The notes under the pieces: model-generated | What the model was told of the DNA's origin: nothing | What the model saw: only the letters and a program-made list of their open reading frames with translations | Databases searched by the model: none | Source of the DNA: Agromyces sp. LHK192 | Lineage (GTDB): Bacteria; Actinomycetota; Actinomycetes; Actinomycetales; Microbacteriaceae | Assembly (NCBI RefSeq): GCF_004006235.1 | Contig: NZ_CP034753.1 | Span: forward strand, 1,984,001 to 2,048,000 | DNA: 64,000 nucleotides | Reading direction: 5' to 3' | Shown: positions 29,987-35,998 of the stretch, piece by piece | How the letters are laid out: every line of letters starts with the position of its first letter | Numbering within the stretch: the first letter of the stretch is position 1 | Made by a program: the position numbers and the translations under genes

Positions 29987-30142
29987 TGAAGGCAGGACCC
30001 GTTCTCGTCCAGGCCGCGCAGCACCGCTGCGACCACCGGTGGACTTGACATGGGTCCTCATAGTGTCCAGAAACACCGGACCCGGACCAGCATCCCGATC
30101 CGACCCGCAGCGGGTGTCGGAACGGTGAGGAGAGGCGAATTC

Positions 30143-31459
30143 ATGGCAACCAAGTCCCCGACGTCCGCGAAGGGCGACGCCGAGGCGACCGCTCCCGCGA
30201 AGGCCTCGAGCGCGACGGCCGCCAAGGCCCCGGCCAAGAAGGCGGGAGCGAAGACGACGACGGCGTCGAAGACGCCTCGCACGACGACGGCGAAGAGCTC
30301 GACCAAGGCGAAGGGCAAGGCCGGCGCCGGCGACGAGGTCGACGAGGAGGAGATCGAGGAGGTCGAGATCGAGGCGGACGACACCGCCGAGACCGAGACC
30401 GAGACCGCCGCGACCGGCGACGCCGAGTCCGACGAGGAGGAAGCCGCACCGATTCCCGTCGAGCCGCACCCCACCGGCGCTCTCGTGCTGCGTGCCGTGG
30501 ACGACGAGGACGAGGTCCCCGTCTACTCCGCAGCGATCACCGGCGCCACGGCCGACCCGGTCAAGGACTACCTGAAGCAGATCGGCAAGGTCGCGCTCCT
30601 CAACGCGGCCGAAGAGGTCGAGCTCGCGATGCGCATCGAGGCGGGCCTGTTCGCCGAGGAGAAGCTCTCGCACATGGCCGAGGCCGAGAAGCGCACGCAG
30701 CTCGGCCGCGAACTGCAGTGGGTCGCGAAGGACGGGCAGCGCGCGAAGAGCCACCTGCTCGGCGCGAACCTGCGTCTGGTCGTCTCGCTCGCCAAGCGCT
30801 ACACGGGTCGCGGCATGCAGTTCCTCGACCTGATCCAGGAGGGCAACCTGGGCCTGATCCGTGCCGTCGAGAAGTTCGACTACACGAAGGGCTTCAAGTT
30901 CTCCACCTACGCCACCTGGTGGATCCGTCAGGCGATCACTCGCGCGATGGCCGACCAGGCACGCACGATCCGCATCCCGGTCCACATGGTCGAGGTCATC
31001 AACAAGCTCGCGCGCGTACAGCGTCAGATGCTGCAGGACCTGGGCCGCGAGCCCACGCCCGAGGAGCTCAGCCGCGAGCTCGACATGACCCCTGAGAAGG
31101 TCATCGAGGTGCAGAAGTACGGCCGCGAGCCGATCTCGCTGCACACGCCGCTCGGCGAGGACGGCGACAGCGAGTTCGGCGACCTGATCGAGGACACCGA
31201 GGCGGTCGTCCCCGCCGACGCGGTGGGCTTCACGATGCTGCAGAAGCAGCTGGAGTCGCTGCTCGACTCGCTCAGCGAGCGCGAGGCGGGCGTGATCCGG
31301 ATGCGGTTCGGCCTCGGCGACGGCATGCCGAAGACGCTCGACCAGATCGGCGACACGTTCGGCGTCACCCGCGAGCGGATCCGTCAGATCGAGTCGAAGA
31401 CCATGGCGAAGCTCCGTCACCCGTCGCGCTCGCAGTCGCTCCGCGACTACCTCGAGTAG
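30143..31459 (+). CDS. sigA: primary RNA polymerase sigma factor
   Basis: Directs RNA polymerase to housekeeping promoters. The 438-residue protein starts with about 120 residues rich in Lys, Ala, Thr, Glu and Asp and has no region 1.1. Region 1.2 is [28 protein letters not shown], split here as [10 protein letters not shown] then ALLNAAEEV. Region 2 has [19 protein letters not shown] and [17 protein letters not shown], and region 4 ends with [18 protein letters not shown] and its helix-turn-helix. The ATG at 30143 has GAGGAGAGG upstream. It lies seven bases before murT, so sigA, murT and gatD may be cotranscribed. Confidence 0.96.
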
Positions 31460-31466
31460 GCCGCAG

Positions 31467-32738
31467 GTGGGAGCTGGTTCGCTGCGCTACGCGCCGGCGA
31501 TCCTCATCGGAAGGTTCACCCGATTCGCCGCTCGGCTGCGCAAGCCGGGCGGCGGATCGGCGGTGCCCGGCCTGGTCGTCAACCGCATCGCGCCCGGATA
31601 CCTCCGGCGCACGCTCTCGGGATTCCCGGGCGGACTGATCGTGGTGTCGGGCTCGAGCGGCAAGTCGACGACCACGAAGATGCTGGTCGCGGTCCTGCGC
31701 GCCCACGGCGTGGAGGTGTTCACCAACCCGTCGACCGCGAACATCAGCCAGGGGCTGACCTCGGCGCTGCTGGAGCAGTCCGACTGGCGTGGCCGGGTGC
31801 CGGGTGACGTTGCGGTCCTCGAGATGGACGAGGGGCACGGCGCGCTCGTGATGCAGGGCGTGGACGCCCGCATCGTTGCGCTGACGAACGTGATGGTCGA
31901 CCAGATCGACCGGTTCCACGACTCCGAGATGGTCGTCGGGATGCTCGCGCGCATCGCCGCCCGCGCGCAGGAGTCGCTCGTCATCAACGCGGACGACGCG
32001 GCGCTCGAACGGCTCGCCGCGACGGTGGGCGCCGGGCTCGGCGTCCACCGGTACGGCGTCGCGGCCTCGGTGCTCGAAGCCGCCCCGCGAGGATTGGGTT
32101 ACTCGGAGACCACGCGGACACGGCTCGCGCCCGAGCAGGGCGTCGTGGTCGAATACGTCGACGGTCGACGCACCGAACTCGCGGACGGCGGGGCATCCGT
32201 CGGGGTCGGGTTGCCGGCCCGCGGAACGCACTACGCGGTCGATGCGGCCGCCGCCTACACGACCGCGCGTGCGGCGCTCGGCGATCGGTTCGACCGCGAC
32301 ATCGCGGCGAACGCACTCAGCGCGATCCCCGCCGTGTTCGGACGCGGCGAACGCGTGACGGTGCGCGGCCAAGAGGTGGAGTTCGTGCTGGTCCAGAATC
32401 CCGCGAGCTACCAGCTCAATGTCGACGGGATCGAGCCGGGCACCGAGCAGATCCTGTTCGCGATCGGCTCGGACGTTCGCGATCCCTCCTACTTCTGGCC
32501 GACGGATGCCTCGTCGCTTGCGCGGGTCGCGATCGTGAGCGGATCGAAGGCTGCCGAGGCCGCCCTCATGCTCGCGTACGACGGCGTCGAGATCGACCGC
32601 GTCGAACCCGACCTCGCGACCGCCGTCGACGACTTCCTCGCCGCACCGGCTCCGCTCGCCGGCGTCAAGACGATCGTGTTCTCCGCCGACTCGATGCGTC
32701 GGACTCGCGCCCACCTCGGACTCACGGGAACCGAATGA
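31467..32738 (+). CDS. murT: MurT-like Mur ligase (lipid II D-glutamate ligase subunit), lacking the zinc ribbon
   Basis: Mur-ligase-family protein that in other Gram-positives pairs with GatD to amidate the D-glutamate alpha-carboxyl of lipid II. The 423-residue protein has the P-loop SGSSGKSTTTKML at 61-73, the Mur motif LTNVMVDQIDRFHD near 140 and a C-terminal DUF1727-like domain with DVRDPSYFW near 340. Well-studied MurT proteins carry a four-Cys zinc ribbon in the central domain; this protein has no cysteine at all, and the region reads straight through. It overlaps gatD by ATGA. The ATP-dependent ligase core seems intact; the acceptor amine may have changed (inference). Confidence 0.85.
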   Translation: MGAGSLRYAPAILIGRFTRFAARLRKPGGGSAVPGLVVNRIAPGYLRRTLSGFPGGLIVVSGSSGKSTTTKMLVAVLRAHGVEVFTNPSTANISQGLTSALLEQSDWRGRVPGDVAVLEMDEGHGALVMQGVDARIVALTNVMVDQIDRFHDSEMVVGMLARIAARAQESLVINADDAALERLAATVGAGLGVHRYGVAASVLEAAPRGLGYSETTRTRLAPEQGVVVEYVDGRRTELADGGASVGVGLPARGTHYAVDAAAAYTTARAALGDRFDRDIAANALSAIPAVFGRGERVTVRGQEVEFVLVQNPASYQLNVDGIEPGTEQILFAIGSDVRDPSYFWPTDASSLARVAIVSGSKAAEAALMLAYDGVEIDRVEPDLATAVDDFLAAPAPLAGVKTIVFSADSMRRTRAHLGLTGTE

Positions 32739-33469
32739 CCTTCACGATCGCGACGCTCGCTCCGTCGCTGCTGAACACGAACGGCGACGCCCAGAACGCG
32801 AACGTCCTGGCGCAGCGACTGCGCTGGGCGGCGCACGACGCGCGCGTCGTCGCCGTCGAGGACGTCGCCGACCTTCCCGACCGGGTCGACGCCGTCGTCA
32901 TCGGCTCGGGCAACGACTCGACGCTGGATGCTGCGAGGGCGAAGCTGCTCACCCTCCACGACCTCCTGCGTCGCTGGGGCACGGAGGGCGTTCCCATCCT
33001 CGCGGTCGGCACCGGGTGGGAGCTCCTCTCCTGGGGTGTCGAGCGCGCCGACGGTTCCGTCGTCGAAGGGCTCGGCGTGCTTCCCGGCCGCGCGGTCGCT
33101 CGCTCGTCGCGGGTCATCGGCGACCTCGTGGTGCGTTCGCCGAGGTTCGGTCACCTGGTCGGGTTCGAGAACCACGCCCGCGACTACGTCCAGGCCGAGG
33201 CCTCCCCGCTCGGGCGAACCCTCGCCGGCGACGGCAACGGACGCGAGTCGGGTCAGGAGGGCGTCGTCATGGGCTGGGTGCTCGGCACCCACCTGCACGG
33301 GCCGGTCCTCGCGAAGAACCCCGGGTTCGCCGATGCGATCATCGCCGAGATGGCCGCGCGCGCGGGCGTCGACTACACGCCGGGCGAGCAGGCCGGGGTC
33401 GTCGACGGGTACGCGGCATCCGCTCGTGAGGCGCAGCTGCGCGGCGCGGGCGTCACCCTCGACCGCTGA
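32735..33469 (+). CDS. gatD: GatD-like class I glutamine amidotransferase with nucleophile cysteine replaced by glycine
   Basis: Partner of MurT, which normally releases ammonia from glutamine. The 244-residue protein has the family fold, including LVGFENHARD near 141-150 and the catalytic-His motif GTHLHGPVLAKNP (His188). The nucleophile elbow, usually LAVCxG(F/Y)Q, reads LAVGTGWE: residue 92 is Gly (codon GGC at 33008-33010), and the protein contains no cysteine. Glutaminase activity by the known mechanism is therefore not expected. Gln to Glu in the same motif argues for long-term divergence rather than a sequencing error. The pair is translationally coupled, so the protein is probably kept as a structural or allosteric subunit. 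Confidence 0.85.
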   Translation: MTFTIATLAPSLLNTNGDAQNANVLAQRLRWAAHDARVVAVEDVADLPDRVDAVVIGSGNDSTLDAARAKLLTLHDLLRRWGTEGVPILAVGTGWELLSWGVERADGSVVEGLGVLPGRAVARSSRVIGDLVVRSPRFGHLVGFENHARDYVQAEASPLGRTLAGDGNGRESGQEGVVMGWVLGTHLHGPVLAKNPGFADAIIAEMAARAGVDYTPGEQAGVVDGYAASAREAQLRGAGVTLDR

Positions 33470-33536: not shown

Positions 33537-33770
33537 TCAGTCGCGGGTGTCGACGAGGAGCCGGCTCGACTCGTCGTGCCAGGTCTGCGCGATCTCGGAC
33601 AGCTTCTCCTGGTGCTTGCGTCCGTGGTGGGCGCAGAAGAGGAGTTCGCCGCTCGCGACGGTGACCCGGATGTAGGCCTGCGCACCGCAGGCGTCGCACC
33701 GATCGAGCGCCGTGAGCTCGTACGGTGCCTCGGCCTCGGCGGTACCGGTGGTCTCGGTGTACTGCGTCAT
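33537..33770 (-). CDS. DUF7455-type small zinc-binding protein
   Basis: A 77-residue protein common next to topoisomerase or sigma-factor genes in Actinobacteria; its function is unknown. It has CDACGAQAYIRV (CxxC) and LLFCAHHGRKH (CxHH), which together make a plausible single zinc site, and a helical C-terminal third with EKLSEIAQTWHDES. The ATG at 33770 is fixed by a textbook AGGAGG five bases upstream. It is divergent from parE. Confidence 0.85.
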   Translation of the reverse strand: MTQYTETTGTAEAEAPYELTALDRCDACGAQAYIRVTVASGELLFCAHHGRKHQEKLSEIAQTWHDESSRLLVDTRD

Positions 33771-33913
33771 GGCGCCTCCTCCAGTGCTCACGTTCGATCC
33801 GTTCCTCCATTTCAACACGACCACGCCCGTGAACCTGCCCGTGCCGGGGGCATTTCGCTCAGCGCGTAGTGGCGGAGGGGCGGCGTCGGCCGTCGACACT
33901 AGGCTTGGGCGAC

Positions 33914-35998
33914 GTGAGCTCCGACTATTCCGCCCGCCACCTCTCCGTGCTCGAGGGCCTCGAGGCCGTCCGCAAGCGACCTGGCATGTACATCGGGTCG
34001 ACCGACTCGCGCGGGCTGATGCACTGCCTCTGGGAGATCATCGACAACTCCGTCGACGAGGCGCTGGCCGGGCACGGCACCGAGATCGAGATCCTGCTCC
34101 ACGCCGACGGCAGCGTCGAGGTCCGAGACCATGCGCGTGGCATCCCGGTCGACATCGAACCCAAGACCGGACTGTCGGGCGTGGAGGTCGTGTTCACCAA
34201 GCTCCACGCCGGCGGCAAGTTCGGCTCGGGATCCTACGCGGCATCGGGCGGCCTCCACGGCGTCGGCGCCTCGGTCGTGAACGCCCTCTCCGAGCGGCTC
34301 GACGTCGAGGTCGATCGAGGCGGCAAGACCTGGGCGATGTCCTTCCACCGGGGCGAGCCGGGACGATTCGCGGATGCCGCCGGGGCGGCCCCGAGCCCCG
34401 CGGCGGCGTTCGCGCCCTTCGAGGAGGCGAGCGAACTGCGCGTCGCCGGCAAGGTCGCGCGCGGCGTCACCGGCACGCGGGTGCGCTACTGGGCCGACTC
34501 GCAGATCTTCACCAAGGGGGCGTCGTTCCAGCTCGACGAACTGCTCGGGCGCGCGCGCCAGACCGCGTTCCTCGTGCCCGGCCTCGGCATCACGGTGGTC
34601 GACGAGCGCGGCGCGGAACGCGACGAGCACCGGTTCGCCTTCGAGGGCGGCATCTCCGAGTTCGTCAAGCACCTCGCCACCGACGGACCCGTGACCGACA
34701 TCTGGCGCCTGTCGGGCGACGGCAGGTTCACGGAGATGGTCCCGGTGCTGAGCGAGAGCGGTGCCATGCTCCCGACCGAGGTCGAGCGGCACTGTCATGT
34801 CGACATCGCGCTGCGCTGGGGGACCGGCTACGACACGGTGTTCCGAAGCTTCGTGAACATCATCGCGACGCCGAAGGGCGGCACCCACCAGGCCGGATTC
34901 GAGCAGGGCATGCTGAAGTTCATCCGCGCGCAGGTCGAGCAGAACGCCAGGCGGTTGAAGGTCGGCAACGACAAGCTCGACAAGGACGACGTGCTCGCGG
35001 GCCTCACCGCCGTGCTGACGGTCCGGCTCGCCGAGCCGCAGTTCGAAGGCCAGACGAAGGAGGTGCTCGGCACCCCGGCGGTGCGCTCGATCGTGTCGTC
35101 GGTGGTGACGAAGGCGCTCGGCGAGCGGTTCGCCTCGACGAAGCGCGACGACAAGGCGCAGACCGCACTCGTGCTCGACAAGGTCGTCGCCGAGATGAAG
35201 GCGCGGATCTCCGCCCGTGCGCACAAGGAGACACAGCGCCGCAAGACGGCGCTCGAATCGTCGTCGCTTCCCGCGAAGCTGGCCGACTGCCGATCGACGG
35301 ATGTCGCGCAGAGCGAGCTCTTCATCGTCGAGGGCGACTCGGCCCTCGGCACCGCCAAGCTCGCGCGCGACAGCGAGCACCAGGCGCTCCTGCCGATCCG
35401 CGGCAAGATCCTCAACGTCCAGAAGGCCTCGATCGCCGACATGCTCGGCAACGCCGAGTGCGCGGCGATCATCCAGACCATCGGCGCCGGTTCGGGCCGC
35501 TCGTTCGAGATCGGCCAGGCGCGGTACGGCAAGGTCATCATCATGAGCGACGCCGACGTCGACGGCGCCCACATCCGCACCCTGCTCCTGACGCTCTTCT
35601 TCCGCTACATGCGGCCCATGATCGAAGAGGGCCGGGTGTTCGCGGCGGTGCCGCCCCTGCACCGCGTGGTCGTGGTGAACCCCGGATCGAAGCCGAACGA
35701 CATCATCTACACCTATTCGGAGCCCGAGCTCAGCGCCGTGCTCGCCGATCTCAAGCGGCGCGGCAAGAAGTACCAGGATCCGATCCAGCGGTACAAGGGC
35801 CTCGGCGAGATGGATGCCGACCAGCTGGCCACGACGACGATGGACCGTGCGCACCGCACGCTGCGACGCGTGAACGTCGCGGACGCCGAACAGGCCGGTC
35901 GCGTGTTCGAACTGCTCATGGGCAACGAGGTCGCTCCGCGCAAGGAGTTCATCATCGACAGCGCGAACGGGCTCAGCCGGGAGCGCATCGACGCCTGA
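33914..35998 (+). CDS. parE: type IIA DNA topoisomerase subunit B (ParE/GyrB-like)
   Basis: ATPase subunit of topoisomerase IV or a second gyrase. The 694-residue protein has the GHKL ATP site with EIIDNSVDEALAGHG near 39-53 and GGLHGVGASVVNALS near 113, the transducer domain, and the TOPRIM motif EGDSALGTAKLARD near 470 with DADVDGAHIRTLLL near 545. It lacks the long insertion of Gram-negative GyrB. The GTG start lies eight bases after TAGGCT (33900-33905), suggesting a leaderless mRNA. Its parC partner lies downstream in the convergent orientation. A separate gyrAB pair is expected elsewhere, so parE is preferred to gyrB. Confidence 0.9.
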   Translation: MSSDYSARHLSVLEGLEAVRKRPGMYIGSTDSRGLMHCLWEIIDNSVDEALAGHGTEIEILLHADGSVEVRDHARGIPVDIEPKTGLSGVEVVFTKLHAGGKFGSGSYAASGGLHGVGASVVNALSERLDVEVDRGGKTWAMSFHRGEPGRFADAAGAAPSPAAAFAPFEEASELRVAGKVARGVTGTRVRYWADSQIFTKGASFQLDELLGRARQTAFLVPGLGITVVDERGAERDEHRFAFEGGISEFVKHLATDGPVTDIWRLSGDGRFTEMVPVLSESGAMLPTEVERHCHVDIALRWGTGYDTVFRSFVNIIATPKGGTHQAGFEQGMLKFIRAQVEQNARRLKVGNDKLDKDDVLAGLTAVLTVRLAEPQFEGQTKEVLGTPAVRSIVSSVVTKALGERFASTKRDDKAQTALVLDKVVAEMKARISARAHKETQRRKTALESSSLPAKLADCRSTDVAQSELFIVEGDSALGTAKLARDSEHQALLPIRGKILNVQKASIADMLGNAECAAIIQTIGAGSGRSFEIGQARYGKVIIMSDADVDGAHIRTLLLTLFFRYMRPMIEEGRVFAAVPPLHRVVVVNPGSKPNDIIYTYSEPELSAVLADLKRRGKKYQDPIQRYKGLGEMDADQLATTTMDRAHRTLRRVNVADAEQAGRVFELLMGNEVAPRKEFIIDSANGLSRERIDA

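Follow-up and report, generated by a model that had tools for sequence, protein, structure and literature searches.

A cysteine-less GatD coupled to MurT behind sigA in Agromyces and other Microbacteriaceae: candidate ligase for group-B peptidoglycan bridges

Here, we analysed a murT-gatD gene pair in a stretch of 64,000 nucleotides from Agromyces sp. LHK192 (contig NZ_CP034753.1, positions 1,984,001 to 2,048,000; hereafter, the window), in which GatD, a subunit with the fold of class I glutamine amidotransferases (GATases), lacks the nucleophilic cysteine. We consider it rather probable, judging from comparative sequence evidence, that MurT and this cysteine-less GatD constitute an ATP-dependent peptidoglycan ligase that adds a bridge amino acid, and not an amidotransferase. 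In group-B peptidoglycan, long a chemical hallmark of the Microbacteriaceae, the cross-link proceeds via the alpha-carboxyl of D-Glu, and canonical MurT/GatD targets that same carboxyl. Our survey revealed concerted residue changes in GatD, their conservation, their restriction to one family in the sample, the exchange of ligase genes at one genomic slot and the association of racemase genes with a sister subclade of the pair. Thus, the preserved MurT core, a GatD that keeps its amino acid-capturing arginine, the ligase exchange and the linked racemases would converge on one function, the attachment of the bridge amino acid to D-Glu.

The gene murT (31467..32738, + strand) encodes a Mur-ligase-fold subunit of 423 amino acids, and gatD (32735..33469, + strand) encodes the 244-residue partner. 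The two genes share an ATGA overlap (32735..32738, + strand) that contains the TGA stop codon of murT, as the earlier note, made from the letters of the window, had described. The nucleophile elbow of the window GatD reads ILAVG92TGWELL, and its translation contains no cysteine at all. In a HMMER alignment with Staphylococcus aureus GatD (5n9m and 6gs2; E about 1e-26), Gly92 (codon GGC, 33008..33010, +) stands opposite the catalytic Cys94, His188 (33296..33298, +) opposite the catalytic His189 and Arg126 (33110..33112, +) opposite Arg128, which captures glutamine; at the place of the gate residue Tyr17 lies Asn16 (32780..32782, +). The translation and the alignment thus bear out the two central statements of the earlier note, glycine at the nucleophile position and a cysteine-free protein. 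Its observation that the GTHLHGP and GFENHA motifs remain also stands, with the qualification that the equivalent of the catalytic histidine is the second histidine of GTHLHGP, H188, and not the first, H186, which aligns with S. aureus Tyr187. The protein matches the GATase family PF07685 (E 1.6e-17), and its AlphaFold2 model shows a confident GATase fold (mean predicted local distance difference test score, pLDDT, 95.9), closest to S. aureus GatD (6gs2_A; template-modelling score, TM, 0.90). Hence, GATase fold, GatD homology, catalytic histidine and substrate arginine are all present, and the nucleophile and the gate tyrosine are both absent. The protein scores 87.6 bits with the curated isoglutsynth_GatD model, the cut-off of which, 400 bits, is strict, given that none of the 159 genomes of our order survey passed it.

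What these residues do is documented for S. aureus: R128 holds glutamine and the Y17 loop covers the site, C94A abolishes glutaminase, and C94A, H189A and R128A are all inactive (PMC5871853). Cys94Gly, a change identical to that in the window, abolished lipid II amidation in S. aureus, and in Streptococcus pneumoniae a tyrosine, which we take as the equivalent of S. aureus Tyr17, plugs the passage between the glutaminase site and MurT (PMC6085368). The behaviour of these C94A and Cys94Gly mutants lends good support to the contention of the earlier note that a glutaminase of the known mechanism is impossible in the window protein (PMC5871853, PMC6085368).

To what extent is the cysteine loss shared? 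We surveyed 150 genomes of Microbacteriaceae and 159 genomes of the order and read 157 loci; L001 and L002, both from the window, were merged into one row, and L162, L003 and L106 were dropped for want of a usable GatD or of a MurT. Certain genomes (e.g., G038, G090, G099, G108 and G110) were counted without residue-by-residue reading, and the Cys type of G124 and G128 was assigned by score and kinship. The single-contig, 4.09-Mb assembly of the window strain yields one GatD match and no second intact GatD at E <= 0.001, with one further, very weak match counted by a broader model in G000; a MurT search of the same genome returned, besides murT, a single weak and partial hit (E 1e-8). Glycine occupies the elbow in all of the 120 best of 622 GatD matches, the window's own protein included, and so a private mutation or sequencing error can be dismissed; the nearest named homologues among the matches listed are from Agromyces. 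Cysteine is missing, replaced by G, A, S, T, N or H, in 94 of the 109 Microbacteriaceae rows (window included), and is present in all 49 rows from other families of the order. Among 34 titled Microbacteriaceae records chosen by a sigA DNA pattern, that is, without selecting on the pair itself, 30 carry the non-Cys pair, and in the other 4 the search gave nothing or a match no better than about E 1e-4.

Mapped on a rapidly inferred tree of concatenated MurT and GatD (158 rows), a mapping that the earlier note had called for, the cysteine was lost twice, both times inside the Microbacteriaceae. The main non-Cys clade comprises 85 rows (Shimodaira-Hasegawa-like approximate likelihood ratio test support, 100), and the second loss corresponds to a small clade of 8 rows with histidine at the elbow, together with the long-branched L097, which has glycine there. 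Members of this His-elbow branch (L095, L096, L099-L104, L178 and L225) display LFTHNALEV or a similar elbow and have lost the catalytic histidine. Close relatives of the window protein carry glycine, and the Cys pairs of the family form separate clades at other genome places; cysteine in close relatives, the finding that would have spoken against the significance of Gly92, was thus not encountered. In five Leifsonia genomes (L227-L231, one of them a metagenome-assembled genome, MAG), the non-Cys pair follows sigA and a canonical Cys MurT/GatD is encoded elsewhere, so that the non-Cys pair should not simply be equated with the amidase. A clear map from the elbow residue (G/A/S/T/N/H) to the bridge amino acid was not obtained, there being few named strains with known bridges.

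The loss of the cysteine was accompanied by further changes. The gate tyrosine is kept in none of the 85 main-clade GatDs, in none of the 8 His-elbow GatDs and in all 64 Cys GatDs, and the latter retain the equivalents of Tyr17, Arg128, Asp19 and His189 without exception (64/64 for each). The main clade keeps the Arg128 equivalent in 80 of 85 rows, as does the His-elbow clade in 8 of 8, with Asp19 retained in 77 and the His189 equivalent in 59 of the 85 main-clade rows. Sequence conservation thus suggests that, in the main non-Cys clade, the hydrolytic parts have gone and the arginine that captures the amino acid has mostly been retained. Non-Cys GatD is under purifying selection: omega, computed on the last 228 GatD codons of 17 non-Cys pairs, has a median of 0.19 (range 0.06-0.34), and MurT gives 0.09; these values rule against a pseudogene. 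Together with conservation and the overlap with murT, this supports the view of the earlier note that gatD is retained. In two reduced genomes, G081 and G144, MurT was found and the GatD model matched merely at E 3e-4 to 4e-4. In the 1.1-Mb genome G081, the frame overlapping the end of murT (L320:3228-3761) encodes what we read as a GatD-like remnant of 177 residues, perhaps a minimal partner subunit.

The ligase subunit itself appears intact. The window MurT contains a Mur ligase middle domain with its P-loop (PF08245, 45.3 bits, above the cut-off of 24) and the MurT C-terminal domain (PF08353, 24.8 bits, slightly below the cut-off of 25), and its AlphaFold2 model (pLDDT 86.3) lies near MurT, MurF and MurE (TM 0.5-0.65). 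The P-loop Lys66, Asn92 (taken as the equivalent of S. pneumoniae Asn85), Glu119, Asp121, Glu122, Arg293 and Asp339 are invariant in all 85 main-clade MurTs. Superimposed on this preserved core are clade-wide switches, namely Asn to Asp259 (Asp in 84 of 85 main-clade MurTs versus Asn in 63 of 64 of the Cys type), Gly to Ser314 and Arg to Lys361. The window MurT is free of cysteine and lacks the Cys4 zinc-ribbon insertion. The CxxC motifs are missing also in many Cys-type actinobacterial MurTs, so the ribbon does not define MurT in this phylum, and their frequent absence from Cys-type MurTs outside the Microbacteriaceae eliminates ribbon loss as the cause of the cysteine loss. One or two CxxC motifs are kept in the His-elbow MurTs.

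The genomic context of the pair is equally distinctive. In the window, a sigA-type sigma factor (RpoD) gene (30050..31459, + strand) ends 7 bases 5' of murT, and the variable slot behind it is closed by a small conserved gene (33537..33770, - strand; within the open reading frame 33537-33899, with the start chosen at the Met of MTQYTE), tentatively labelled DUF7455-like. The right border is formed by another conserved neighbour, a gene for a DNA gyrase/topoisomerase IV subunit B-like protein (33869..35998, + strand), presumably ParE. Among L033-L112, 61 of the 64 non-Cys loci have an RpoD homologue 5' of murT, and the non-Cys loci mostly continue downstream with the small DUF7455-like gene and parE; no RpoD homologue lies beside any of the 34 Cys loci longer than 5 kb.

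The murT/gatD operon has been called universally present in Actinobacteria (PMC6085368); a MurT match at E <= 1e-20 is missing in 29 of our 150 family genomes. In Salinibacterium, Rhodoglobus and a Leifsonia MAG, all without MurT, the slot holds a PF01996 protein of ~232 residues, resembling F420 ligases, and an ATP-grasp protein of family PF14397; in a fourth MurT-less titled genome (L175), the F420-ligase-like gene follows sigA. The slot PF01996 protein falls far under the curated F420_cofE cut-off (35 vs 181 bits). The F420-ligase-like gene (E <= 7e-82) occurs in 24 of the 150 genomes, 21 of which are among the 29 MurT-less ones, and coexists with the main non-Cys pair in a single genome of the 150, by virtue of a weak match. 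The mutual exclusion with the main non-Cys type, a set of 95 genomes that remain after subtraction of the other types, has a Fisher p of 5e-11, not corrected for kinship. Of the 28 genomes having the F420-ligase-like gene, 23 carry it directly after sigA, mostly with the ATP-grasp gene (L166:1664-3419, L171:1252-3699, L191:5103-7599, L310-L318 and L322-L324); in the 8-kb stretches of G053 and G147 it lies elsewhere than after sigA, and the 3.5-3.7-kb stretches of G020, G044 and G094 showed no RpoD. In G022, the only sigA match is 50% identical. The ATP-grasp gene, found in 26 of the 150 genomes, is present in 24 of 32 genomes with the F420-ligase-like gene or the His-elbow type and in 2 of the 118 others. 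The type varies even within genera, main versus F420-ligase-like in genera g7, g9, g58, g77 and g84 and main versus His-elbow in g38, g43 and g49, which indicates that cassettes have been exchanged. Unrelated amide bond-forming ligases thus appear, by sequence, to substitute for one another at one place. In genome G123 (L309:3325-6105), sigA, the F420-ligase-like gene, MurT and a divergent GatD, for which no Pfam match was found at E 0.001, follow one another consecutively.

The slot also harbours paired genes of the alanine-racemase fold. Among the 119 family genomes in which the slot was read, Pfam scans identified two such genes in 20 of 75 main-type, 7 of 14 F420-ligase-type, none of 7 His-elbow and 1 of 23 ligase-free slots. 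A search expression applied to the 66 chains of 33 loci (L033:1549-3317 and 32 further loci) found the lysine motif for pyridoxal phosphate (PLP) only in 30, the VSYGxT(Y) motif only in 26, neither in 10 and both in none; aligned with solved racemases, the long chain of L033 has the tyrosine stretch deleted and the short chain has Arg in place of Lys. These complementary losses make it probable that the two chains function as an obligate heterodimer, an amino-acid racemase whose single active site is composed from both. Of the main-type loci with racemases, all 20 belong to one MurT/GatD subclade and none to that of the window. Genomes of this racemase-rich subclade usually contain several PF00842 genes, two or more in 44 of 51, versus 6 of 33 in the window's subclade; a single Alr is found in 27 of these 33, and the window genome itself has one PF00842 gene.

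The cell walls of the family provide the chemical frame for these observations. Microbacteriaceae genera have wall types B1, B2beta and B2gamma (PMC7033078, PMC5945732), and the wall of Agromyces aureus is reported as B2gamma, with D-Glu-L-Dab (L-2,4-diaminobutyrate; PMC5217419). Such an L-Dab bridge would need no racemase, which fits the mostly single Alr of the window's subclade. We infer the substrate, the nucleophile, the lipid stage and the role of GatD as follows. MurT would phosphorylate D-Glu, the second residue of the stem, at its alpha-carboxyl, as in canonical MurT/GatD, probably at the lipid I/II stage, and the acyl phosphate would be attacked by a free amino acid, through its amino group, instead of by glutamine-derived ammonia. 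This amino acid would be the first residue of the group-B bridge, in Agromyces most likely L-Dab. The non-hydrolytic GatD would act in docking and binding and would hand the amino acid over to MurT, a role proposed because the nucleophile and the gate tyrosine are gone and the amino acid-capturing arginine is kept. An amine or amino acid nucleophile, for which the earlier note had suggested an assay, is also the option that the wider evidence favours. We are evenly divided on a broader proposal, in which the slot behind sigA would be a group-B chemotype locus, where interchangeable ligase cassettes (MurT with cysteine-less GatD; His-elbow MurT/GatD, often with ATP-grasp; F420-ligase-like, usually with ATP-grasp), with or without the heterodimeric racemase, set the D-Glu-linked amino acid and its configuration, a glutamine amidotransferase having been turned into an amino-acid ligase by knock-out of its glutaminase.

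Several observations weigh against this assignment, at least as a general one. Leucobacter chironomi is reported to have a B-type wall (PMC4511665), the Leucobacter GatDs among the matches listed are of the Cys type, and the Leucobacter-related, Lysinibacter-like G024 has an empty sigA slot, so that group-B bridges can probably be made without a non-Cys pair. In fourteen Cys-only genomes (13 read, G128 assigned by kinship), the slot lacks any ligase of the kinds searched for, and the F420-ligase-like gene, too, is missing in 8 of the 29 MurT-less genomes. Some lineages must therefore use something other than this pair, and the notion of a universal B-type ligase is weakened by Leucobacter, the empty slots and the 29 of 150 genomes without a MurT match alike. 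Three scanned slots contain genes with no apparent connection to bridges, namely an ABC transporter (L297), an MFS protein (L075) and an epimerase (L038), and so the sigA slot may in part be an insertion hot spot; empty, for 23 of the 119 slots read, means devoid of a ligase of the searched kinds, and these 23 include two inserts of ABC transporter size (the one in L297 scanned) and a racemase pair in G053. The His-elbow MurTs keep Asp339 in 0 of 8 rows. The racemase contrast is likewise incomplete, since 7 of the 51 genomes in the racemase-rich subclade have a single Alr and 6 of the 33 in the window's have more than one, and the assignment of L-Dab would carry over to the window's strain from a congener.

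How do other explanations fare against a bridge ligase? MurT could make iso-D-glutamine from free ammonia, with GatD merely a structural partner, a possibility that accommodates the retained fold and murT coupling of a Cys-free GatD and draws on the S. aureus enzyme, which uses ammonia at pH 8.5 and still requires GatD (PMC6085368). Such an amidase would leave unexplained the exchange with F420-ligase-like and ATP-grasp proteins at the same place, the racemase genes beside the sister subclade and the Cys pair alongside in the five Leifsonia genomes. Moreover, amidation would block the very alpha-carboxyl that group-B bridges need, and we regard this explanation as improbable. To about the same low degree, we entertain a ligase whose amino acid would go onto some other molecule of the envelope, e.g., a lipid, a storage peptide or a peptide of the capsule. 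In its favour, F420-ligase-like and ATP-grasp proteins accept a wide range of substrates, and the predicted MurT structure also lies close to further ligases of the Mur superfamily. Against it, the closest solved relatives by sequence are peptidoglycan MurT/GatD, the non-Cys type was seen, within the order, only in the family known for group-B walls, and the racemases suit the D-amino acids of bridges.

That GatD is still a glutaminase with an unrecognised nucleophile, or else a decaying gene, is already largely refuted and appears very improbable. The persistence of H188 and R126 in the window would suit a hidden glutaminase, but an elbow occupied by G, A, S, T, N or H, with the catalytic histidine in only 59 of 85 main-clade rows, leaves no conserved nucleophile, and neither C94A nor C94G is active in S. 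aureus (PMC5871853, PMC6085368). Decay is contradicted by the omega range given above.

Comparison with characterised systems places the window pair next to, yet apart from, the lipid II isoglutaminyl synthase MurT/GatD (S. aureus 6gs2/6h5e/7q8e; S. pneumoniae 6fqb; Streptococcus pyogenes 9sq9). Folds, gene order and coupling are the same, and the MurT core residues and the GatD Asp, Arg128 and His189 are shared, whereas Cys94, the gate Tyr17 and the MurT zinc ribbon are absent from the window pair, MurT carries the switches described above, and the post-sigA locus and the partner modules differ. Cys-type pairs whose MurT lacks CxxC (e.g., in families f4, f6 and f18 and part of the Microbacteriaceae) group with the main clade on the tree; most of these MurTs are, like that of the window, devoid of CxxC motifs, but, unlike in the window, Cys, Tyr17 and His189 are present in all rows read and no RpoD adjoins any of the 34 Cys loci over 5 kb. 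MurE and MurF, which ligate an amino acid or dipeptide and resemble the MurT model (TM about 0.6), attach an amino acid to a stem-peptide carboxyl through an acyl phosphate; unlike these, MurT has no UDP-binding N-terminal domain and works with a GatD subunit. The families that share the slot, CofE F420-0:gamma-glutamyl ligase (PF01996) and sugar-transfer-associated ATP-grasp (PF14397), are unrelated in sequence to MurT/GatD, that is, alternatives rather than relatives.

Among the openly licensed papers searched, we found none that names the ligases of group-B peptidoglycan or links MurT/GatD to it. The results presented here point to concrete candidate genes for group-B bridge ligation and offer an example, open to experimental test, of how a subunit that once released ammonia from glutamine may have come to deliver a substrate without hydrolysing it. 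Furthermore, they suggest that the label lipid II isoglutaminyl synthase, which UniRef gives to several homologues of the window GatD, is wrong for many genomes.

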